Origin: Chloroflexota bacterium
GTDB lineage: Bacteria; Chloroflexota; Dehalococcoidia; SM23-28-2; RBG-16-64-32
DNA length: 12,318 nucleotides
Assembly (NCBI GenBank): GCA_016190405.1
Contig: JACPQO010000096.1
Coordinates: forward strand, 1 to 12,318
Direction of reading: 5' to 3'
The notes under the pieces were generated by a model, which was given only the letters and a program-made list of their open reading frames with translations, had not been told where the DNA came from and did no database searches. A program made the position numbers and the translations under genes. Numbering within the stretch: the stretch's first letter is position 1; each line of letters begins with the position of its first letter. Of the stretch, positions 1,480-10,600 are shown piece after piece.

Positions 1480-2049
1480 CTAAAGCTGCTCCCTGGAGAC
1501 ATCGCGGGAGTTGTGCGCCGGCCCCACTCGCTTTCCGTCCAGGACCCGGAGCAGGTAGCGTTCGCCGCCGGAGAGGACGGCGGCGAAATGCTCGCTCACC
1601 ACCTCCTCGAAGGCGGGACAGATCCGTTCCTCCAGGGGCGCCACGCGGTAGCCGCGGAGCCTGCTCAGGGAGATGACGCCGGGCCGAAGCTGGCTGAGCG
1701 GGACGTCGGCCAGGATCCAGTCCTCGAACATCTGCATGCGCAGCGCCGCTATCATAGGGACGTAGCCATCGCTGGTACGGCCAGCCAGGGCATCGATGTT
1801 CTCCTTGGAAAGGGGGACCGCGCTGCTATCGGTCGTCTTCACTTCCAGGGCGTACTTCTCGCCGGCGGCGTTCGCCACGTCGATGTCGGCGCCCTGGACA
1901 CCCCGTTCGGTGAAATGGTGGAAGCCGGCGTTGTAGAAGGCGATGGCCAGCAGCTTCTGGGTGATCTTGCCGAAGATGCCGGGCCCGTACTGTTGCCGCA
2001 GCTTGCGGAGCTGATAGAAGGTCGCGGTCTTCATGTCGCCCCGCGTCAA
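1480..2049 (-). CDS. PD-(D/E)xK nuclease, Holliday-junction-resolvase-like
   Basis: A predicted small DNA endonuclease of 189 residues (184 if started at the ATG). The core reads GADIDVA (53-59) followed by YALEVKTT (66-73), giving the D...ExK metal-binding triad Asp55 or Asp57, Glu69 and Lys71. An N-terminal helix (GKITQKLLAIAFYNAGF, 27-43) precedes it, and KENIDALAG (82-90) then VPMIAALR (97-104) follow. This is the order seen in Hjc-type resolvases and related restriction-endonuclease-fold enzymes. The usual helix-1 glutamate is not obvious. The C-terminal 80 residues match nothing I recognise and may bind a partner. The first start, TTG at 2047-2049, overlaps the ATPase stop in the sequence TTGA. 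An ATG at 2032-2034 behind GGGG is an alternative. The tight coupling makes it the likely effector of the upstream ATPase. The fold is fairly sure; the role in defence or repair is inference. Confidence 0.8.
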   Translation of the reverse strand: MTRGDMKTATFYQLRKLRQQYGPGIFGKITQKLLAIAFYNAGFHHFTERGVQGADIDVANAAGEKYALEVKTTDSSAVPLSKENIDALAGRTSDGYVPMIAALRMQMFEDWILADVPLSQLRPGVISLSRLRGYRVAPLEERICPAFEEVVSEHFAAVLSGGERYLLRVLDGKRVGPAHNSRDVSREQL

Positions 2050-4223
2050 ACCCTGACGACTTTTGGCCCGCCCTGTTCGGTCCAGTCGACGAAGTCGTAC
2101 ACGGCCTTGCTCTTGGTGACGTTGGCCATAAGGAGCTTCCGCAACTCGTCGTCCGGGGTGGCTATGATCACTTTACGCCAGGAGGCCACGTCCTCCAGGA
2201 CGCCGACCAGCCTTCGCTTCGTGGCCGAGCCGAGGCTCTGCGCGGGATCGTCCAGCATCAGGAAACCGAAGGGCTGCGCTTCTCCAGCCGCCCGCGCCAG
2301 GCCCAGGAATATCGAAAGAGCCAGGCAGTTGAAGTCCCCCTGGCTCAGGATGGGCGTGGGGTCGGCGCCATCGGTGGTCTTGAAAGAATAAGAGTTGAGC
2401 CCGCTCCGGACGTCCTCCGTGACCTCGATCATCAAGCCCGATATGGCTGGATGGTCCGCCATGCGCCTGAAGTATTCGCTGAGAGACGCCCCGGCAGCCT
2501 GTATCTTGTCCTGGGCCTCCTCGCGGGAGACCGTGGCCAGGGAGCTCCTGATCACCTGCACGTCCTCCACCAACTGCGCCGCCTCGCCCCGCAGCTCATT
2601 CAGTTGGGCCACCTCCGGGCTCTCCCAGATGCGCTCGACGAACCTGCGTTTTTGCTCGTACCTGATGATCTCGTCGATGGTGCGCAGCTTCGCCAGCTGG
2701 TCGTAGATGCCGCCGCTGCCGCTTATCCGCTGCCTCTTCTGCTCTATGGCCTTGCCGATTCGCTCCAGATCGGCGTCGATCTCCGCCAGCCGGGCGCGCA
2801 TGAGCGCCGCCGGGTCATCCACCCTGCCCACGATCTCGCGGCCGAGGGCGCGGCCGACCTGGCCCAGCCAGCCGGCCACCTCCGACGCGGCATCCCGGAC
2901 GCCCTTCTCCAGCTTCTCCAATTGGGTTCTCAAGGACTGGATCCCATCAATCTGAAAGGCGTGGGTCTCCCGTTGCCTGGCCAGCTCCTCGATCTCCTGT
3001 GAGAGGGTCTGCTCCCACTCGCTTTCCAGGTGGGCGAGCAGTTGGGGCGCCTGGCTGCCACACAGGGGACAGCGGCTCGCCGCGTCCGGCGCCGCCGTCT
3101 TGAGGTACTCTACGGCCTCGCGGACCAGGCCGGCCCTCTTGTCCATCTCGCGTATCCTGGTGTCCAGCTCGTCGACCTTTCCTTTCCGCTCGCGAAGACG
3201 CTGCGCCAGCGCGGTGGCATCGCCATTCTGTCGAATGAAAGTTTCCAGCTCCTGGCGCGCCTGCGCTTCCCTTTCCCTTGTGGCCTCATACTGTCCACTC
3301 AACTTGCCCAGCTCCTGCTGCTTCTTGGCCAGCGCCTCCTGCCTGACGACGTCAGGCGCCTGGGCCCACAGGCTGTCCAGTTGGTCCTTGGCCCACTGCC
3401 GGAACGTCTCTATCTCTTCGTATCGCTGGGGCGAGGCGACCTGCAGCTCCGGCACCTCCAAGTCGCGGGCCAGGGAGCGGATCGCCTCGGCGATCTCTCC
3501 GGCCATGCTCAGCGCCGCCTGCTCCGTTATCTCCTCCGGCCTGAGCCCCTGCGCCATGGCCTTCGCCTTCTCCTCCCGTATGAGGTTTTCGAAGGTCCGG
3601 ATGCTTTGCTCCGCTCGTATCCGGAGGCCCTCGAAGGCGCCCTCCATGCTGCGTTGCCCTTTCTCCACGTCGGCCAGGCGGATCCCCCGCAGCAGCTCCC
3701 GGTACTCCGATAGCCCCAGCAGCCGGTCGATGGCGTCGTTCCGCTCCCGCGCTTCGTTGGTCAATATGGCCCGCACCGTCTCCTGGTGCTGGTAGACGGT
3801 GGTCATGAAGTCGCGGAAGGACGTGCGGAACAGGGCCGGCAGACGTCCGGCGGCGGCTTCCCCCTGGAGCCGGGTACCATCCGGGAGGACGACCATGAGG
3901 GTTCCGCCGGACCGGCGCTTGCTCCCGTCCAGCTCGCGTCTTACGGAGTATGAACCGTCGGGGCCGCTGAACTGCGCTTCGACGGCTACTGCGCCATCGG
4001 CCGCCTGACGGTTGGCGACCTCCCAGTCCAGGCGCTCGCGGATGCCCGACTTCTTGCCCACGCAGTCATCGCCGAAGAGGCACCACTCTACTGCGTTCAG
4101 GGCGCTGCTCTTACCCCGGTGGTTCTCGCCGACTAGCAGCACAACCGGTTCGTCGAACGTGAACACGCGCTCGTCGGTGAACCCGCGGAAGCCGTTGATT
4201 GTGAGTCGCGTCAGGTGGAACAA
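2046..4223 (-). CDS. Rad50/SMC-like ABC ATPase with zinc hook
   Basis: A 725-residue ATPase with ABC half-sites at both ends of an antiparallel coiled coil. The N-terminal lobe starts LTRLTINGFRGF, with Walker A GENHRGKS (32-39) and a Q-loop region YQHQE (144-148). Charged coiled coils (about 185-380 and 400-600) flank a CPLC zinc hook (385-388), which in Rad50 dimerises two molecules. The C-terminal lobe has the signature LSQGD (626-630), Walker B FGFLMLDDP (652-660) and a D-loop region QSLGS. Two features are unusual: Walker B ends in Asp-Asp rather than Asp-Glu, and the H-loop histidine position reads ATPDD (Pro690). It is shorter than SbcC (about 1,000), and no SbcD-type phosphoesterase is adjacent, so this is not SbcCD. 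The start is TTG at 4221-4223, 11 nt after the small upstream gene and without a strong Shine-Dalgarno, suggesting translational coupling. Family placement is good; the biological role is not known. Confidence 0.9.
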   Translation of the reverse strand: MFHLTRLTINGFRGFTDERVFTFDEPVVLLVGENHRGKSSALNAVEWCLFGDDCVGKKSGIRERLDWEVANRQAADGAVAVEAQFSGPDGSYSVRRELDGSKRRSGGTLMVVLPDGTRLQGEAAAGRLPALFRTSFRDFMTTVYQHQETVRAILTNEARERNDAIDRLLGLSEYRELLRGIRLADVEKGQRSMEGAFEGLRIRAEQSIRTFENLIREEKAKAMAQGLRPEEITEQAALSMAGEIAEAIRSLARDLEVPELQVASPQRYEEIETFRQWAKDQLDSLWAQAPDVVRQEALAKKQQELGKLSGQYEATREREAQARQELETFIRQNGDATALAQRLRERKGKVDELDTRIREMDKRAGLVREAVEYLKTAAPDAASRCPLCGSQAPQLLAHLESEWEQTLSQEIEELARQRETHAFQIDGIQSLRTQLEKLEKGVRDAASEVAGWLGQVGRALGREIVGRVDDPAALMRARLAEIDADLERIGKAIEQKRQRISGSGGIYDQLAKLRTIDEIIRYEQKRRFVERIWESPEVAQLNELRGEAAQLVEDVQVIRSSLATVSREEAQDKIQAAGASLSEYFRRMADHPAISGLMIEVTEDVRSGLNSYSFKTTDGADPTPILSQGDFNCLALSIFLGLARAAGEAQPFGFLMLDDPAQSLGSATKRRLVGVLEDVASWRKVIIATPDDELRKLLMANVTKSKAVYDFVDWTEQGGPKVVRV

Positions 4224-4234
4224 GGCACCGTCTT

Positions 4235-4435
4235 CTACAGCATGTCTTCCAGCTTGACCACGAGAGCGTCGAACCTACGCCTTAGGTGGCTCATGCGCTT
4301 AGCGAGTTCATCCTGGACGCCCTCAGCCCCGCTCGACTGAAACGAACTGACGATGGTTTCCCACAGGGCGAGCCTCTCTTCCGTGCGGCGCCCCGAGGCG
4401 CGGACCTGCTCTTCCAAACGCTGTTCGTAGCCCAT
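4235..4435 (-). CDS. Small charged helical protein heading the ATPase/nuclease operon
   Basis: A 66-residue protein that I do not recognise. It is rich in Glu, Arg and Leu, with no membrane segment, no cysteine and no enzymatic motif. Two amphipathic stretches are visible, about residues 4-34 (YEQRLEEQVRA onward) and 40-66 (VQDELAKRMS onward), joined by a short SSGAEG turn. This suggests a helical hairpin or short coiled coil. The ATG at 4433-4435 is the only possible start, because an in-frame TGA lies 12 codons upstream and no GTG or TTG intervenes. It lacks a clear Shine-Dalgarno. The gene ends 11 nt before the ATPase start, and a strong promoter lies 173 nt upstream, which supports a real first gene of the unit. 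By position it could be an adaptor for the ATPase coiled coil or a regulator; this is inference. Confidence 0.65.
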   Translation of the reverse strand: MGYEQRLEEQVRASGRRTEERLALWETIVSSFQSSGAEGVQDELAKRMSHLRRRFDALVVKLEDML

Positions 4436-4607: not shown

Positions 4608-4635
4608 ATTCTAGACGATATGTTCTACCTGTCAA
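4608..4635 (-). promoter_or_regulatory. Promoter of the coil/ATPase/nuclease operon
   Basis: On the minus strand a perfect -35 TTGACA (4630-4635) is followed after 16 nt by TAGAAT (4608-4613), one mismatch from the -10 consensus. A transcript would begin near 4601 and run into the 66-residue gene at 4435 with an unusually long leader of about 165 nt. This is the best minus-strand promoter in the 500-nt gap and gives the three-gene unit its own transcription start. Confidence 0.65.
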
Positions 4636-4935: not shown

Positions 4936-6510
4936 TTGTCTCCCATAAAGGCGGTGATGGATGAGGAGATGCGATCAAGGGAGGGTGCGGGAGTGATCGA
5001 GAGCCAAGAGCTTCAATCGGCCCTGACAGCAGAGCTGCTGGCTGAGTCACAGCGGCCGCTACTGCCAGCAGAGCCCTTCCAGGGAGAGGCCCGCCCAGAC
5101 CAACTGACCAGGCCCTTCAGGCTGCTGCGGCTTGGGGGCGTCGTCGCGGTGGCCAGTGCCCTGCTGACGGCCACCGTGACGCACCTCTCGATCGTCGGAG
5201 GGGTAGTGCCGCTGATGGCGGAGGCTTCGGTCCTGCTGGCCGTGGCGATGACCGGCGAGGCGATGCTACGATGGGCGGAAAAGCGGCTGCGGCGCGAGCG
5301 GGAACGGGCCCAGCGCATCTGGCTGAGCCGTCAGGCGGAGCTTCAGGAGATCGCCAGCCGGGATGACCTCACACAGCTCCAGAACCGGCGCTTCTTCTAC
5401 GAGCGGCTCCAGGAGGAGCTGGTCCATGCCGACAGCCACAAGAAGCCTCTGTCCATCGTCATGATCGACGTGGACGACCTCAAGGCGATCAACGACGACT
5501 TCGGTCACCAGGTCGGAGACGTCGTGCTGCGCCAGTTCGCCCGAATCCTCAACCGCTATGCTCAGGAGAACTACGTGACGGCCCGCCTGGGCGGCGATGA
5601 GTTCGCGGTCATCATGCCGGGGGCCGACCGGCGGCGGACGGACGAGTTAGCCTGGCGGCTGTGGGACGAGCTGGCAGCCTCTCCGGTCTACGAGAGCGAC
5701 ACTGCCAGCATCTACCTGGGGGTGTCCATAGGCAGCGGCGGCTATCCCTGGGGCGGCAACGACATGGAGGAGATTATCCACTGGGCGGATGCCAAGCTGT
5801 ACGCCAACAAACTGGAACGCAAGGGCCTCAAGGGTGCTGACCACAAACGAGCCGACAACCGCCTGGTCTCGGCTGTGGTGGGCGTCCTTTCCACTGCTCT
5901 GGAGATACGCGACAGGATGACGCACCACCATAGTCGGCGGGTGGCCCGGATGGCCGTGGTGGTGGCCAAGCAGATGGGGCTCTCGGACGAACTGGCGCTG
6001 GAGATCGAGTTCGCGGCGGCCCTGCACGACATCGGCAAGATAGGAGTGGCCGACAGCATCCTGCGCAAGGCCGACCCTCTGGAGCCCGCCGAGTGGAGAG
6101 AAATGCGCCGCCACTCCGAGCTGGGCTACGAAATCCTCAAAGGGATCGATTTCCTGCGCAGCGCCGCCGAGATCGTGTACGCGCACCACGAGCGCTACGA
6201 TGGCAAGGGGTACCCCCGCGGGCTGGCCGGGGAAGAGATCCCCATCGGCGCGCGGGTGTTCGCGGTAGTGGACGCCTTCGACGCCATGACCTCGCGCCGT
6301 CCCTACCGCGACGCCATGTCCCGCGAGATGGCTACCATCGAGGTGGCCCGCACCGCCGCCACGCAGTTCGACCCGCGGGTGGTGGAGACGTTCCTGGCGG
6401 TCGTCCGTGGCGGCCCGGACGACTTCTACGGCGACGGCGACGAGGAGTTCGGTTCTCGCATCGTCGTCAACGCCGCCCGCCCTAAGGGCACCGAGACGAC
6501 TATAAGTTGA
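4936..6510 (+). CDS. Membrane-anchored GGDEF and HD-GYP dual c-di-GMP enzyme
   Basis: A 524-residue protein that carries both a domain making c-di-GMP from two GTP and one that hydrolyses c-di-GMP. The first 60 residues are polar. Two hydrophobic segments (about 63-87 and 89-107) form a membrane hairpin with no recognisable sensor domain. A charged helix (111-140) leads to the GGDEF domain (about 141-300), with the metal site IDVDDLKAIND (177-187) and an intact GGDEF at 219-223. The inhibitory RxxD site just upstream is absent (QENY at that position). The HD-GYP domain (about 308-495) keeps HD (364-365), Lys368, His393, HHE (417-419), the DGKGYP block (422-427) and Asp447, so both active sites look complete. 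The start is TTG behind AGGAGG. It converges on a pilin gene, which suggests control of attachment. Which activity dominates in the cell cannot be read from sequence. Confidence 0.93.
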   Translation: MSPIKAVMDEEMRSREGAGVIESQELQSALTAELLAESQRPLLPAEPFQGEARPDQLTRPFRLLRLGGVVAVASALLTATVTHLSIVGGVVPLMAEASVLLAVAMTGEAMLRWAEKRLRRERERAQRIWLSRQAELQEIASRDDLTQLQNRRFFYERLQEELVHADSHKKPLSIVMIDVDDLKAINDDFGHQVGDVVLRQFARILNRYAQENYVTARLGGDEFAVIMPGADRRRTDELAWRLWDELAASPVYESDTASIYLGVSIGSGGYPWGGNDMEEIIHWADAKLYANKLERKGLKGADHKRADNRLVSAVVGVLSTALEIRDRMTHHHSRRVARMAVVVAKQMGLSDELALEIEFAAALHDIGKIGVADSILRKADPLEPAEWREMRRHSELGYEILKGIDFLRSAAEIVYAHHERYDGKGYPRGLAGEEIPIGARVFAVVDAFDAMTSRRPYRDAMSREMATIEVARTAATQFDPRVVETFLAVVRGGPDDFYGDGDEEFGSRIVVNAARPKGTETTIS

Positions 6511-6553
6511 AGCGAGCCGCCATCCGCGCACGGGTCGCCGGCATTCGCAGCTA

Positions 6554-6574
6554 CGCCGGCATGGCGAGCCGGCG
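6554..6574. terminator. Hairpin between convergent genes, possible terminator
   Basis: CGCCGGC (6554-6560) and GCCGGCG (6568-6574) form a perfect 7-bp stem with a 7-nt loop in the 76-nt gap between the convergent GGDEF/HD-GYP and pilin genes. A third copy, CGCCGGC at 6536-6542, could compete for pairing. Neither strand has a T-run after the stem, so strong intrinsic termination is doubtful. Confidence 0.3.
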
Positions 6575-6586
6575 GGTCCACACAGT

Positions 6587-6757
6587 CTACAGGCTGGGCG
6601 CGATTGAGCCCAGTGCCCCCGCTATCGCCACGCTCAGCGTGGCCAGGGCGATGACGCAAACGGCGGCTACGAACGCAATTATCATGCCGTACTCGGCAAG
6701 ACCCTGACCTTCTTCCTCCCTCAGTGGCGCCAGCATCAGGCGCATCGCGCTCTTCAT
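6587..6757 (-). CDS. Flp/Fap-type (type IVb, Tad) prepilin
   Basis: A 56-residue prepilin. After a short basic leader (MKSAMRLMLAPLR) come EEEGQGLAEYG (14-24) and a hydrophobic segment of about 26 residues (24-49), the Flp family layout. The prepilin-peptidase motif G-x4-EY is exact: Gly17, QGLA, Glu22-Tyr23. Cleavage after Gly17 would leave a 39-residue mature pilin that packs through its hydrophobic helix into a thin Tad pilus. Flp precursors usually have 50-80 residues, so the length fits. ATG at 6755-6757 follows an AAGGAGG Shine-Dalgarno (6763-6769) by 5 nt. The stop is TAG at 6587-6589. No other tad genes (CpaF/TadA ATPase, TadB, TadC, TadV) are in the window, so it depends on genes elsewhere. 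It faces the c-di-GMP enzyme gene tail to tail. The internal cysteine (Cys34) in the hydrophobic helix is unexceptional. Confidence 0.88.
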   Translation of the reverse strand: MKSAMRLMLAPLREEEGQGLAEYGMIIAFVAAVCVIALATLSVAIAGALGSIAPSL

Positions 6758-6854
6758 TGGGCCCTCCTTCCCGCAGCCTCCGACACAAGACTAGACGCGC
6801 AAGCATGAGCCGATGGTTGGCCGTCGGGGTGAACAATTGGGGAAATCGCCGCTA

Positions 6855-7487
6855 TCAGCCCATTCGTGCTGCCCGGTCCGCCACCACCAGGGGCCCCAGG
6901 AGCAACAGGGCGCAAGCGTAGCCGCCCAGGACATCGCTCGGCCAGTGGACGCCCAGGTAGACGTTCGCCGGCCCGTTGAAGACCAGGATGAACAGGGACA
7001 GGGCGCCCAGGGCCCAGCGGGCCGTCGTGGCCAGCGTCAGAGCGATCGAAAGATAGAGCAGGAAGCCGTACAGATACGTCCCGCTCATCACGTGGCCGGA
7101 AGGGAAGCTGGGGCTGGAGAAAGAGGCGCGCAGGTCCACCAGCTCCGCGCTGGGGCGCGGCCTATCGACAATGTCCTTGATGGAGGCTGCCAGCAGCGGC
7201 AGCAGGACAAGCCCTACGGCCAGGAGGATCGCCTGCCGGCGATAGCCCCGCAGCCAGAGGACCAGCGCGATGGCCGCCCCGGTAGCCAGGACCACTTCCG
7301 TAGAGACGACGGCTCGCACCGTGTCGGAGAAATCCTCGCCGGGGAAGGCCAGCCCCTGCGCCCAGGTGGTGATGCCCACGTCGCCCGGGAGAGTGTCATG
7401 GCGGGCCGCCAGGAACGTGAGGGCCAGCGTCAGTCCCAGGAGGGCCAGCCAGAGGGCGCCGGCGACTAGCAGGCCGAGCCGTGACAT
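6855..7487 (-). CDS. PAP2-family membrane phosphatase, altered third motif
   Basis: A 210-residue integral membrane protein of the type 2 phosphatidic acid phosphatase family, which removes phosphate from lipid phosphates such as phosphatidate or undecaprenyl diphosphate. Hydrophobic helices are seen at about 5-27, 65-79, 86-102, 134-152, 157-171 and 186-204. The motifs are C1 KDIVDRPRP (104-112, K-x6-RP), C2 PSGH (129-132) and C3 NVYLGVHWPSD (175-185). His132 and His181 are the expected proton donor and phospho-histidine nucleophile, and Asp185 is present. C3 normally begins Ser-Arg, with the arginine holding phosphate; here it reads Ala174-Asn175, so catalysis may be weakened or the substrate different. 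The ATG start lacks a close Shine-Dalgarno and lies 26 nt after the oxidoreductase stop, so it is probably translated from the same message. The substrate is not predictable. Confidence 0.88.
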   Translation of the reverse strand: MSRLGLLVAGALWLALLGLTLALTFLAARHDTLPGDVGITTWAQGLAFPGEDFSDTVRAVVSTEVVLATGAAIALVLWLRGYRRQAILLAVGLVLLPLLAASIKDIVDRPRPSAELVDLRASFSSPSFPSGHVMSGTYLYGFLLYLSIALTLATTARWALGALSLFILVFNGPANVYLGVHWPSDVLGGYACALLLLGPLVVADRAARMG

Positions 7488-7513
7488 CGAGATGTCGACC
7501 CTGCCGGCGCTCC

Positions 7514-8599
7514 TTAGGCCAGCGGGAGTTGGTCTCCGCCGGACGCCGCCGAGCGGTAGATGGCGTCCACCGCCCGGTGCGCCTCCAGGGCCAGCCGGAA
7601 GTCCGGGAAGGGGTCCTTTCCCTGGGCGACGGCGCTGAGGAAGAAGTAGTCCTCCAGCGAGAAGCGGCGCAGGGCATCCTCAAAGGCGGGCTCCGCCAGG
7701 CCGATCTGCTGGAGGTAGCGGCGTCGCACCTCATCCTCCGAGATCGTCTCGGCCGGCTTGCCGTGGGCCTGGAAATGGATCGGGCCCAGGAAGTCGTCGT
7801 CGACGAAGAAGGCGCCGTTCTCGAAGAACAGCTCCAGCCGGCGCGTCGAGGGGCGTCCGATGACGTTGTGCCAGACCGACACCAGCTCCGCCTGTCCCCC
7901 GTCCTGGAACTCGATGTGGGCCAGGGCCAGGTCTTCCACCCCCTCGTGGCCGGCGAAGTTGCGGACGGAGCCGCGCACCGTGCGGATGTCCCCGCCAAAC
8001 CAGCGCAGGACGTCCAGGTCGTGGATCGAGTGCTCCAGGAGGGCGCCTGAGCCGACCAGCCGGCGGTCCTTGCGCCACTCGCTGGCGTAGTGGCCCTGCA
8101 CCGGGAAGAACTGGTCGTCGCGCAGGATTATGGCCATCAGCCGTCCCAGCGACGGGTCTTCCGTCAGGGCCTTGAGGACGGCGAGGATGGGAGAGTGGCG
8201 GAGGATGAGGCCCACGCCGGCCTTGACGCCGGCCCGTTCCACGGCGACCACCATCTCCTGCACGTCTGGCAGCGCGGCGGCCAGAGGTTTTTCGCAGAAG
8301 ATGTGCTTGCCCCGCTCCGCGGCGCGCAGGACGAGCTCCTTGTGCCAGGCCGTGGGCACGCAGATGTAGACTACATCGATATCGGGCGAGTCGATGACCT
8401 CCGGCGCCTGCGTCGTCACCCACGGTACCCCCGCCGCCTCGGCGAAGGAGCGGGCGCGGGTCTCGTCCAGGTCGCAGACAGCGGCGTAGCGGACATCGAC
8501 CAGGCCCAGGCGGATCAGGCCGCGGATGGCGCGGGAGTGAAAGCGCCCGATGAGCCCGCAGCCGATAAGGCCGATGCGGAGCGGCGGTGGCGACGACAT
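7514..8599 (-). CDS. Gfo/Idh/MocA-family NAD(P)-dependent oxidoreductase
   Basis: A 361-residue cytoplasmic dehydrogenase of the glucose-fructose oxidoreductase/inositol dehydrogenase family, which oxidises or reduces sugars, cyclitols and related compounds. The N-terminal Rossmann fold has GCGLIG (13-18) and an acidic residue after strand 2 (VCDLDE, 41-46) that favours NAD. The family EKP motif is at 103-105. The C-terminal alpha/beta domain holds LLEHSIHDLD (187-196), where His193 is the likely catalytic histidine. Length fits the family. ATG at 8597-8599 has AAGGGG about 4 nt upstream. Its own promoter overlaps the end of tetR. The PAP2 gene follows 26 nt later. The substrate cannot be named; a link to the neighbouring diiron protein through the TetR regulator is only positional. 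Confidence 0.93.
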   Translation of the reverse strand: MSSPPPLRIGLIGCGLIGRFHSRAIRGLIRLGLVDVRYAAVCDLDETRARSFAEAAGVPWVTTQAPEVIDSPDIDVVYICVPTAWHKELVLRAAERGKHIFCEKPLAAALPDVQEMVVAVERAGVKAGVGLILRHSPILAVLKALTEDPSLGRLMAIILRDDQFFPVQGHYASEWRKDRRLVGSGALLEHSIHDLDVLRWFGGDIRTVRGSVRNFAGHEGVEDLALAHIEFQDGGQAELVSVWHNVIGRPSTRRLELFFENGAFFVDDDFLGPIHFQAHGKPAETISEDEVRRRYLQQIGLAEPAFEDALRRFSLEDYFFLSAVAQGKDPFPDFRLALEAHRAVDAIYRSAASGGDQLPLA

Positions 8600-8606
8600 C
8601 TAGCCC

Positions 8607-8635
8607 CTTATAGGGCAGGCGCGGGTCTGGGTCAA
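8607..8635 (-). promoter_or_regulatory. Near-leaderless promoter of the oxidoreductase
   Basis: The minus strand reads TTGACC (8630-8635), a 17-nt spacer, then TATAAG (8607-8612). The -35 box includes the TGA stop of tetR. Standard spacing puts the start of transcription at about 8600, one base before the ATG at 8599, so the transcript would be leaderless or nearly so. Read-through from tetR would instead use the AAGGGG Shine-Dalgarno, which itself overlaps the -10 box. Confidence 0.55.
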
Positions 8636-9288
8636 GCGGTCAGGAGGCCGCGCGTAAGGCGGTCCAGCGCCGGGCTAACGAAATCGGCGAGCGCATCGCG
8701 GCGCTCGGCCGACGTGGCCCCGGCGGGAGCGTGGCGACCGAGGAGGGCGTCCTCAAAGGCCATGAGGATGGTGTAGATCACCTGGCGGGCGATGGCCTGG
8801 ACGTCGTCGCGGGGCAGCTCGCCTTTAGCCATGTAGCGCTCCAGAACGGAGGTCAGGCCGCTCTCCCACAGATTGGCCAGCCGCTGGTACTGCTCGCTGG
8901 CAGCCTCATCGCCGCCCAGCCCCTCCATGATGATGAGGCGCAGGAAGTCGCGGTTCTCGTCCATGATGTTGATCGCCCCGCGGACCATCCAGCGCAGGGT
9001 GTCCGCCAGGGGGACATCGACCGATACGCGTTGCAGCTCCTGGAGGCTGTTTACGAAGCCGCGCTCCTCCACCAGGGCGTCCAGCAGCTCGCGCTTGGAC
9101 TGGAAGTGGTAGTAGATAGCGGCATCCGTGATCCCCGCCTCGCGGGCGATGTCGCGGACGGTAGTGCGGGCGAAGCCGCGCTCGGAAAAAAGGCGCAGGG
9201 ACGCGTCCAGAATCTGCTGGCGGGTCTGGGGGCCCTTGCGGGTTCTCTTGAGCGACGGCTGGGCGGCGAGAGCGCGTTCCGCAGTCAT
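8632..9288 (-). CDS. TetR-family transcriptional repressor
   Basis: A 218-residue DNA-binding repressor that leaves its operator when it binds a small ligand. After a basic tail (residues 12-23) comes the N-terminal helix-turn-helix domain: QQILDASLRLFSERGF (24-39), then the TTVRDIAREAGITDAAIYYHF block (about 42-62), the family signature. The remaining roughly 150 residues form an all-helical ligand and dimer domain of unknown specificity. I start at ATG 9286-9288, which has GGGAG just upstream. A longer form from TTG at 9336 would lie inside the spacer of the predicted promoter, ahead of the transcript start, so I reject it. The gene is divergent from the diiron protein gene, 223 nt away, and a perfect palindrome follows the promoter of that gene. 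This suggests that it represses the diiron gene. Confidence 0.92.
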   Translation of the reverse strand: MTAERALAAQPSLKRTRKGPQTRQQILDASLRLFSERGFARTTVRDIAREAGITDAAIYYHFQSKRELLDALVEERGFVNSLQELQRVSVDVPLADTLRWMVRGAINIMDENRDFLRLIIMEGLGGDEAASEQYQRLANLWESGLTSVLERYMAKGELPRDDVQAIARQVIYTILMAFEDALLGRHAPAGATSAERRDALADFVSPALDRLTRGLLTA

Positions 9289-9511: not shown

Positions 9512-10600
9512 ATGGCAGTCGACGTTGATACGCTGGAGAAGCTGCGCAGCGAGATGGAGGTCGCCAAGCTGGACCTTACGTGGCTGAACCTCGACCATGA
9601 GCGCACCTGGGGCGTTCGCGCCAAGCCCGGCAAACGCGGCCTCACCCTGGACGAGGTTGAAATCGGGTCCTACGGCGAGGTCCCGGAGCAGAGCCAGAAC
9701 CGCTCGATCAAGGCCAGGGGCTCCGTCGCCCGCCCGGACGCGCCCCGCGTGCCCGGGAGCTACGCCGGTAGGGCGGACGTCTACTCCGAAAACACCCGCC
9801 TTCTCTACGAGGAGGCTGTCCAGCGCCAGTGGTCCTCCGCCACGGACATCCCCTGGCAGGACATCCAGCCCCTTCCCGACGACATCGAGCGCGCCATGTG
9901 CCAGCTCTGCACCTTCCTTACGGAGGTCGAGTTCATAGCCGGCGACACGCCCGGACAGTGGCTGCCCAAGATCAACAGCGAGCACCACGAGGTCAAGCTC
10001 TTCCTGCTCACCCAGATCATGGACGAAGCGCGCCACCTGGACGTCTTCCGCAAGCGCGCCTTCGCCAACGGCGGCGGCCTCCTCACCTCTCTGCCCCAGA
10101 ATGGCCTGCGGGTGATAATCGAGGCCAAGGACTTCACCGAGATGTCGGCCATCATGCACGTAGCCGCCGAGGGGTTCGTCCAGTCGATGTTCCGCATGGG
10201 CGAGTACATCGGCCAGAACGACGCCGAGAAGCGAATGTTCCGTCTCTGCGGCCAGGACGAGTCGCGGCACCTGGGCTTTGGCGTCATGCACCTCAAGTAC
10301 GTGATCGAGAACGAGCCCTGGCGGCGCGAGGAGATCCACCACTACCTGGACAAGGTGGAGGGCACGCTGGCCCCTGACCCGCTGGACGGCGACCCCACGA
10401 ACTTCGCCCTGTTCGAGGCGCTGGCCATCCTCATGGGCGGCGGCATCAAGAACATCGATAAGGGCATCCAGATGTCCATGCAGGTCCAGCGCAAGCGCGT
10501 CAACGAGTACATGCACCGGCTGGGCGTCGCCGGCCTGGGCGACCGCCGCGACCGCATGAGCCCGATGCTGAAGCAGTTCCTGGACCCGGCCAGGAACTAG
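9512..10600 (+). CDS. Ferritin-like diiron-carboxylate protein (R2/AurF-like oxidase)
   Basis: A 362-residue soluble protein of the ferritin-like superfamily with a complete set of diiron ligands: Glu138 or Glu140 (LTEVEF), DEARH (171-175: Glu172 and His175), Glu220 (AAEGF) and DESRH (249-253: Glu250 and His253). Two ExxH helices plus two single-Glu helices define the O2-activating carboxylate-bridged sites of ribonucleotide reductase R2, R2-like ligand-binding oxidases, AurF-type N-oxygenases and bacterial multicomponent monooxygenases. The first 90 residues are polar and variable. No electron-transfer or R1 partner is nearby, which argues against a true R2 subunit. ATG at 9512 follows GGAGGG by 9 nt. 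The gene stands alone between a strong promoter with a TetR-type operator and an intrinsic terminator. An inducible oxidase is likely; its substrate is unknown. Confidence 0.8.
   Translation: MAVDVDTLEKLRSEMEVAKLDLTWLNLDHERTWGVRAKPGKRGLTLDEVEIGSYGEVPEQSQNRSIKARGSVARPDAPRVPGSYAGRADVYSENTRLLYEEAVQRQWSSATDIPWQDIQPLPDDIERAMCQLCTFLTEVEFIAGDTPGQWLPKINSEHHEVKLFLLTQIMDEARHLDVFRKRAFANGGGLLTSLPQNGLRVIIEAKDFTEMSAIMHVAAEGFVQSMFRMGEYIGQNDAEKRMFRLCGQDESRHLGFGVMHLKYVIENEPWRREEIHHYLDKVEGTLAPDPLDGDPTNFALFEALAILMGGGIKNIDKGIQMSMQVQRKRVNEYMHRLGVAGLGDRRDRMSPMLKQFLDPARN

Follow-up and report, generated by a model that had tools for sequence, protein, structure and literature searches.

A stretch of 12,318 nucleotides from a Chloroflexota bacterium (contig JACPQO010000096.1; hereafter the window, meaning the whole stretch that was analysed) carries on its minus strand a unit of three genes, which encode a small protein, a zinc-hook ABC ATPase of the Rad50/arcadin-4 type and a PD-(D/E)xK nuclease with a predicted Hjc fold. 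Judged by sequence, the ATPase is related to arcadin-4 of the crenactin cluster and the small protein to arcadin-3; these are the clearest relatives found, and they were unexpected. The three-gene arrangement is conserved beyond chance. Together, the three proteins might form a complex that, on invading DNA, would clamp ends or branched structures and then license the nuclease to cut, a proposal whose chances we put just short of even. A literature search brought up no description of the triad, preprints and most subscription papers being outside its reach.

Layout and conservation of the unit

The gene for the small protein (66 residues; positions 4235 to 4435) starts at an ATG and is separated by 11 nucleotides from the ATPase gene (725 residues; 2046 to 4223), whose TTG start agrees with its relatives, most of which start at the same position. 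The nuclease gene (1480 to 2049) encodes 189 residues when read from a TTG, and it then overlaps the ATPase gene by 4 nucleotides. An alternative ATG (Met6), 15 nucleotides inside, would leave an 11-nucleotide gap to the ATPase gene instead. Of the 33 other aligned nucleases, 26 have methionine in the Met6 column and 22 start there, some of these starts having been chosen by the analyst; by this sequence comparison, the ATG is at least as likely as the TTG. The open reading frames thus bear out the original prediction, made from the sequence alone, of three genes between positions 1480 and 4435 encoding proteins of 66 and 725 residues and a nuclease. The 11-nucleotide gap that it gave also stands, whereas the 4-nucleotide overlap holds only if the nuclease starts at the TTG.

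A profile made from 38 ATPase sequences (alignment A1) was scanned over GTDB genome contigs and led to 39 loci. The contig titles include Chloroflexi, Aerophobetes, Cloacimonetes, Nitrospirae, Thermodesulfobacterium, Deltaproteobacteria, Omnitrophota, Caldisericia, Dadabacteria, WOR-3, actinobacterial groups, Gemmataceae, Chrysopegis and archaea, among others. Several of the contigs, short pieces of metagenomes, may have been binned wrongly. The nuclease gene or a remnant of it lies directly downstream of the ATPase gene in 35 of the 39 loci (remnants in L028 and L034; in L008 the contig ends within the gene). The small gene lies directly upstream in 33 of the 39, three loci having no DNA there, and all three genes are present in 30. 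The linkage foreseen in the original prediction is therefore conserved, and the ATPase homologues mostly have the nuclease and the small gene as neighbours, the opposite of what it had said would refute it. Since the profiles were built from many of the same 39 loci, four later loci outside them serve as a check: L129, L136 and L137 carry all three genes in order (the nuclease of L137 being incomplete at the contig edge), and in L134 the ATPase is truncated. In one remnant locus, L028, only the start of the nuclease is left downstream of the ATPase (about 3233-3403); its frame continues into what resembles, by eye, a DNA methyltransferase of a restriction system, and a small gene that is PIN-like by eye lies upstream.

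The three proteins also vary together. Distance matrices correlate for the ATPase and the nuclease (Mantel r 0.88, 27 rows), the ATPase and the small protein (0.77, 31 rows) and the nuclease and the small protein (0.72, 27 rows), none of 5000 permutations reaching r in any of the three cases; such correlations can arise from shared descent alone and are expected of genes inherited together. Among the 24 genomes behind the loci, 20 hold exactly one such nuclease and four hold none.

The ATPase and its relation to arcadin-4

The ATPase matches Pfam AAA_23 (55.7 bits) and has the motifs of a Rad50-type enzyme, all encoded on the minus strand. Walker A reads GENHRGKS (residues 32-39; 4107 to 4130), with G32, G37, K38 and S39 invariant in the 38 rows of A1. 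The single CPxC motif, CPLC (3060 to 3071), is a zinc-hook motif, and both of its cysteines, Cys385 and Cys388, are invariant in the same rows, as are D658 and D659 of the Walker B motif FLMLDDP (2244 to 2264); the ABC signature-like LSQGD (residues 626-630; 2334 to 2348) is conserved in the alignment. Asp659 occupies the place usually taken by the catalytic glutamate, and the position is aspartate in all 38 rows of A1 and in all 34 family rows of the tree set. Elsewhere it is glutamate in six of eight Rad50-like rows (two not read) and in 9 of 12 arcadin-4, and glutamine in three of four LmuB, the ATPase of the Lamassu systems (the fourth not read). The predicted model, a coiled-coil protein (pLDDT, predicted local distance difference test, 87; pTM, predicted template modelling score, 0.59), retrieves with Foldseek two chains of an Mre11-Rad50-Nbs1 structure in the top two rows, then many SMC proteins, with a chain of a solved Lamassu complex at rank 22; with such a list, the fold alone does not place the ATPase. 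When the ATPase profile was compared with solved structures, the best matches were Rad50.

The relation to arcadin-4 emerged from profile comparisons. The hhalign alignment of the two runs over the whole length (695 columns, E 3.5e-55), and the ATPase profile scores 12 arcadin-4 at 86-145 bits. The equivalog models of NCBIfam are not reached: the ATPase scores 84.3 bits with the arcadin-4 model (NF053563, cut-off 860) and 54.8 bits with the Rad50 model (NF003034, cut-off 700), the latter a weak test, as no genome or control tested passed that cut-off. Membership of the Coalescin/ASRP (ClsN) family was considered and rejected, as the NCBIfam ASRP model gives 48 bits versus 84 for arcadin-4, and arcadin-4 forms a separate, Rad50-affiliated clade in PMC9389158.

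In a head-domain tree of 54 sequences, from which LmuB had been dropped, the family forms one clade (ultrafast bootstrap, UFBoot, 100) apart from arcadin-4 and the Rad50-like proteins, at a mean distance of 3.36 from arcadin-4 and 3.90 from Rad50. The arcadin-4 group itself has a support of only 68, and the tree does not settle whether arcadin-4 is the sister group. Inclusion of LmuB (58 sequences) gave long branches and poor support; in that tree the actinobacterial copies L037 and L038 cluster with archaeal copies (UFBoot 98). L016, whose ATPase frame is broken at undetermined bases, was excluded from both trees, and L011, L014, L028, L034, L035 and L039, being fragmentary or broken, were omitted as well.

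The small protein and its relation to arcadin-3

The small protein is weakly conserved (mean column identity 25 percent) and probably helical; its matches among solved structures, mostly designed helical bundles and other helical proteins, are uninformative. Its profile aligns with that of arcadin-3 over 49 columns (hhalign probability 92.2, E 5.8e-7), and the NCBIfam arcadin-3 model finds it at E 0.03 with 14.3 bits, far below the cut-off of 90 (NF053562). The arcade loci examined have the gene order crenactin, arcadin-2, arcadin-3, arcadin-4; the names crenactin and arcadin-2 are given here by gene size, gene order and likeness to the cluster as published (PMC5173319), and not by a family scan. 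The small-protein profile matches at the place of arcadin-3 in 10 of 12 such loci (E 1.9e-5 to 0.087), and among the first 25 arcadin-4 loci, eight have a match under 0.1. An unrelated gene (L081) reaches E 0.006 with the same profile, so that only the five arcade matches at or under about 0.001 are clear by themselves. The relation to arcadin-3 therefore rests on the profile-profile result. The original prediction had named no arcadin link at all; it missed the relatives of both the ATPase and the small protein.

One reading of this kinship is that the unit is a chromosome-organising or cytoskeleton-linked module, in which the arcadin-3/arcadin-4-like pair would work as it does in the crenactin cluster and the nuclease would be an add-on. 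The full-length relation to arcadin-4, the retained arcadin-3/arcadin-4 gene order and the existence of versions without the nuclease argue for it. Against these points, no actin-like protein, crenactin or arcadin-2 turned up among the scanned proteins of the window, the only locus of the family at which crenactin was looked for, the unit is of sparse occurrence (see below), and the nuclease adjoins the ATPase in most loci. In addition, of 300 genomes of Thermoproteota, the phylum of L039, 45 have arcadin-4 (E 1e-40) and three match the nuclease profile (1e-6), with no genome in both groups. We consider this reading improbable. A contig of a genome from that phylum by title (L111, genome G217) carries a unit with the same profile scores as L129 (genome G864, from the actinobacterial class of L022) and is probably mis-binned.

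The nuclease

The nuclease is predicted to have the PD-(D/E)xK resolvase fold, with an aspartate, D55 (1885-1887, minus strand), and an ExK motif, E69-V70-K71 (1837 to 1845, minus strand); D55, E69 and K71 are identical in all 34 aligned nucleases. Both its profile and its predicted model point to the Hjc fold, and Hjc proteins are its best matches among solved structures, in agreement with the Hjc-like nuclease of the original prediction. The NCBIfam Hjc equivalog NF040854 is not reached (13.7 bits, cut-off 70). The first-helix glutamate of Hjc is catalytic. In the family, the residue aligned with this glutamate of two Hjc-like proteins (L100 and L101) is a glutamine, Gln31, invariant in 34 of 34 nucleases; Hjc-type junction resolution can therefore not be assumed. 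A relation of the nuclease to arcadin-2 was also considered and dropped, as hhalign showed nothing between the two.

Relation to Lamassu

The best PADLOC match of the ATPase is a LmuB model, PDLC03859, with 164 bits over residues 2-700, and the other family members score 132-165 bits. On one reading, the unit is a divergent subtype of Lamassu whose effector would be a minimal nuclease and whose LmuC would be shortened. In PADLOC, however, three arcadin-4 (121-127 bits) and two Rad50-like proteins (112-129 bits) also match this model better than any other, and one of the latter (L088) adjoins what looks by eye like Mre11; the LmuB match is thus not diagnostic. The LmuB of four Lamassu-like loci, whose partners were named by size and order only, give 203, 373, 402 and 486 bits. 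By the scores of this one model, the family lies between Rad50/arcadin-4 and LmuB.

In the reverse comparison, the ATPase profile gives 15-23 bits for three of the four LmuB (the fourth not being listed), versus 58-76 for two Rad50-like proteins and the higher scores of arcadin-4 quoted above, and hhalign aligns the ATPase with LmuB over only 65 columns (E 1.2e-11; with only four LmuB rows, weak when taken alone). The partners do not resemble each other either: the 34 nucleases have no LmuA match in PADLOC at E 0.1 and the small protein of the window has no PADLOC match, LmuC included, at E 1, and the nuclease (189 residues) and small protein (66 residues) compare with 382-443 residues for the first gene and 163-175 for the middle gene of the four Lamassu-like loci. 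LmuB of Lamassu generally carries a Glu-to-Gln change in Walker B (PMC10586767), at the place where the family has its invariant aspartate.

After the PADLOC control with arcadin-4, Rad50 and LmuB, the inspection of the four LmuB neighbourhoods and the hhalign comparison, Lamassu identity was dropped. Some points nevertheless favour a Lamassu subtype. PDLC03859 scores the family above arcadin-4 and the Rad50-like proteins and near the weakest LmuB; this LmuB, at only 203 bits, narrows the gap to the 164 bits of the window and makes the subtype slightly more probable. A D-x-P-[STA]-Q form after Walker B (DxPSQ) is common to the family and three of the four LmuB, which may leave room for a distant tie, and a Lamassu chain figures in the Foldseek list. 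With an unspecific model, three LmuB at 373-486 bits and all of the above differences, a divergent Lamassu subtype appears the least probable of the explanations weighed here. Because PDLC03859 is the best match of Rad50, arcadin-4 and the window family alike, single-gene LmuB calls are unsafe without partner genes.

Distribution, neighbourhoods and proposed function

The class to which L019 belongs (titled Dehalococcoidia) is represented by 294 genomes; the ATPase (E 1e-40) and the nuclease (E 1e-12) occur in the same three of them, and the other 291 have neither; these three had already been reached by the 39-locus scan, so that the prevalence outside them is 0/291. Two other genome sets gave 3/148 and 6/31, entry genomes counted; one of the six is a fragment, and four were known from the 39-locus scan (one by matching coordinates). 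The three copies of the Dehalococcoidia-titled class share only 26-37% identity with each other, while two of them are closer to copies from elsewhere, filed under Proteobacteria and Anaerolineales (73% and 65% identity).

The surroundings were examined with 150 neighbouring proteins from 22 of the 39 loci and a control of equal size, 150 of the 151 proteins encoded in 13 regions taken from ten of the host genomes. At E 1e-15, the neighbours matched 125 PADLOC families and the control 26. In at least six of the 22 loci, genes of defence type lie no more than 6 kb away: a SIR2-like gene and, after it, HerA (6059-8898) in L002, on the same strand and about 325 nucleotides upstream of the unit, resembling the SIR2-HerA defence pair; AbiU-like in L012; OLD-like in L023; Cas3 in L032; PbeA-like and a methyltransferase in L036; and AriA-like in L037. 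Among the proteins scanned singly, L033 also matches an RtcR-type CARF regulator and L020 the unspecific mad3 model, and two Csm6/CARF-type matches lie somewhere among the 150 neighbours.

The sparse bacterial and archaeal spread, the divergence within one class, the archaeal-actinobacterial grouping, the remnants and the nearby defence-type genes together favour defence, to which we give about an even chance. The original prediction had left the choice between conflict and repair; distribution and neighbourhood lean to conflict. In the proposed mechanism, ATPase dimers would join at the zinc hook, and the small protein would bind the ATPase as a stable subunit or a brake. The ATPase would clamp a DNA end or branched DNA in an ATP-dependent manner with slow hydrolysis, the aspartate at the catalytic-glutamate position possibly favouring a long-lived ATP state, and it would position the Hjc-fold nuclease, which would be activated only on the recognised structure, in phage or plasmid DNA. 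Clamping and nuclease positioning are proposed by analogy with Rad50 complexes, which recognise DNA ends, and with Lamassu, thought to sense DNA structures before effector activation (PMC10586767).

Several observations weigh against this proposal. The 125 versus 26 comparison is of small size and includes redundant families; of the 150 neighbours, only 30 were scanned singly in PADLOC (E 1e-15, 1e-20), with one more in Pfam, and methyltransferase/type IIG, DndA/SspA and mad3 matches occur in the control too. No defence gene was found among the window proteins scanned, a set that does not include every open reading frame, and no relative was found in viral contigs. An ATPase present in 6 of 31 genomes of one class is less sparse than a rare defence system. 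The nuclease of L010 (filed under Gemmataceae, about 12148-12645), which stands outside the 34-row alignment, has E-I-R for E-x-K, the catalytic lysine being replaced by arginine. L027, L030 and L031 (genomes G017, G019 and G020, three of the five genomes of one small phylum) have the small gene and the ATPase with no such nuclease anywhere in the genome, which means that the nuclease is dispensable in some cases.

Rad50 and Hjc are repair proteins, and repair is therefore the natural alternative, which also counts against a role in defence. The unit would then be an accessory DNA-repair or recombination complex, its ATPase tethering broken or stalled DNA and its nuclease resolving branched intermediates of the host chromosome. 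The best solved-structure matches, Rad50 for the ATPase profile and Hjc for the nuclease, are those expected of such a complex, and the window copy lies among ordinary chromosomal genes. These points are opposed by the sparse occurrence (3/294, 3/148 and 6/31), the divergent copies within one class, the defence-type genes near several copies and the invariant Gln31 in place of the first-helix glutamate of Hjc; a repair complex is possible, roughly one chance in four to our mind.

The clamp-and-nuclease complex proposed above can be set in a wider frame, which we advance tentatively, at about one chance in three. The unit may be an undescribed DNA-surveillance machine, a nuclease-armed relative of arcadin-3/arcadin-4, and the crenactin cluster may have taken up a Rad50-type DNA-clamping module of a kind that elsewhere guards genomes together with an Hjc-like nuclease. 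If this is true, arcadin-3 and arcadin-4 would link the archaeal cytoskeleton to DNA. In any case, these functionally obscure proteins gain relatives that occur as a linked pair outside the crenactin cluster, which suggests the testable idea that arcadin-3 and arcadin-4 handle DNA. A distinct family, filed in bacterial and archaeal genomes, joins the SMC/Rad50-type ATPases coupled to nucleases, and its minimal three-protein make-up should ease reconstitution.

Other features of the window

A candidate sigma-70-type promoter, TTGACA-16-TAGAAT (4608 to 4635, minus strand), lies about 170 nucleotides upstream of the ATG of the small gene and matches the consensus at 11 of 12 positions; the scanned region holds two promoter-like sites, versus a mean of 0.5 in shuffled sequence. 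The strong promoter announced in the original prediction is thus plausible: the site is there, and its strength is a matter of consensus match only. The remaining window genes with Pfam matches are ordinary (hemerythrin, GGDEF-HD, PAP2, Gfo/Idh/MocA, TetR, acetoacetate decarboxylase and luciferase-like), and Rfam and tRNA scans of the window found nothing. By eye, a 56-residue open reading frame (6590-6757, minus strand) resembles a Flp-type pilin and a 362-residue protein (9512-10597, plus strand) a diiron protein of the ribonucleotide-reductase-R2 type; neither has a Pfam match at E 1e-5.

Comparison with known systems

As a whole, the unit is unlike Lamassu, Wadjet or Gabija, as the original prediction had held, and no single named system in PADLOC matches all three proteins, a match that it had given as grounds for refutation. 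With Lamassu (LmuA-LmuC-LmuB, of the ABC-three-component type, ABC-3C), it shares an SMC/Rad50-like ATPase accompanied by a nuclease and a small protein, but protein sizes and gene order differ, Walker B has aspartate, not glutamine, and the profile relation to LmuB is weak. Wadjet (JetABCD) likewise joins an SMC-type ATPase to a nuclease, in four parts where the unit has three genes; no Jet model is among the best 25 of the 97 PADLOC families for the ATPase, and the nuclease and small protein have no PADLOC match at E 1. For Gabija, made of the OLD-TOPRIM nuclease GajA and the helicase GajB, the best GajA match covers only residues 3-89 of the ATPase (31.5 bits), and the neighbours have no PADLOC match at E 1.

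Mre11-Rad50 and SbcCD are closer in having a Rad50-type head, a zinc-hook motif and a nuclease partner. The unit differs from them by having, where they have a metallophosphoesterase, a PD-ExK nuclease of predicted Hjc fold, by the extra 66-residue protein and by the aspartate at the catalytic position of Walker B; indeed, no metallophosphoesterase is present among the window proteins scanned, the genes adjoining the ATPase included, as originally predicted. The nuclease shares its predicted fold and the D and ExK residues with the archaeal Hjc and RecU resolvases, from which it differs by longer N- and C-terminal helices in its model, by glutamine for glutamate in the first helix (34/34) and by being encoded beside the ATPase in 35 of 39 loci. 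It is the arcadin-3/arcadin-4 pair of the crenactin cluster that offers the likeness of a small protein encoded directly upstream of a zinc-hook ATPase that aligns over its full length; compared with that cluster, the unit of the window adds a nuclease of predicted Hjc fold, and its ATPase family forms a clade of its own (UFBoot 100), separate from arcadin-4 plus Rad50.

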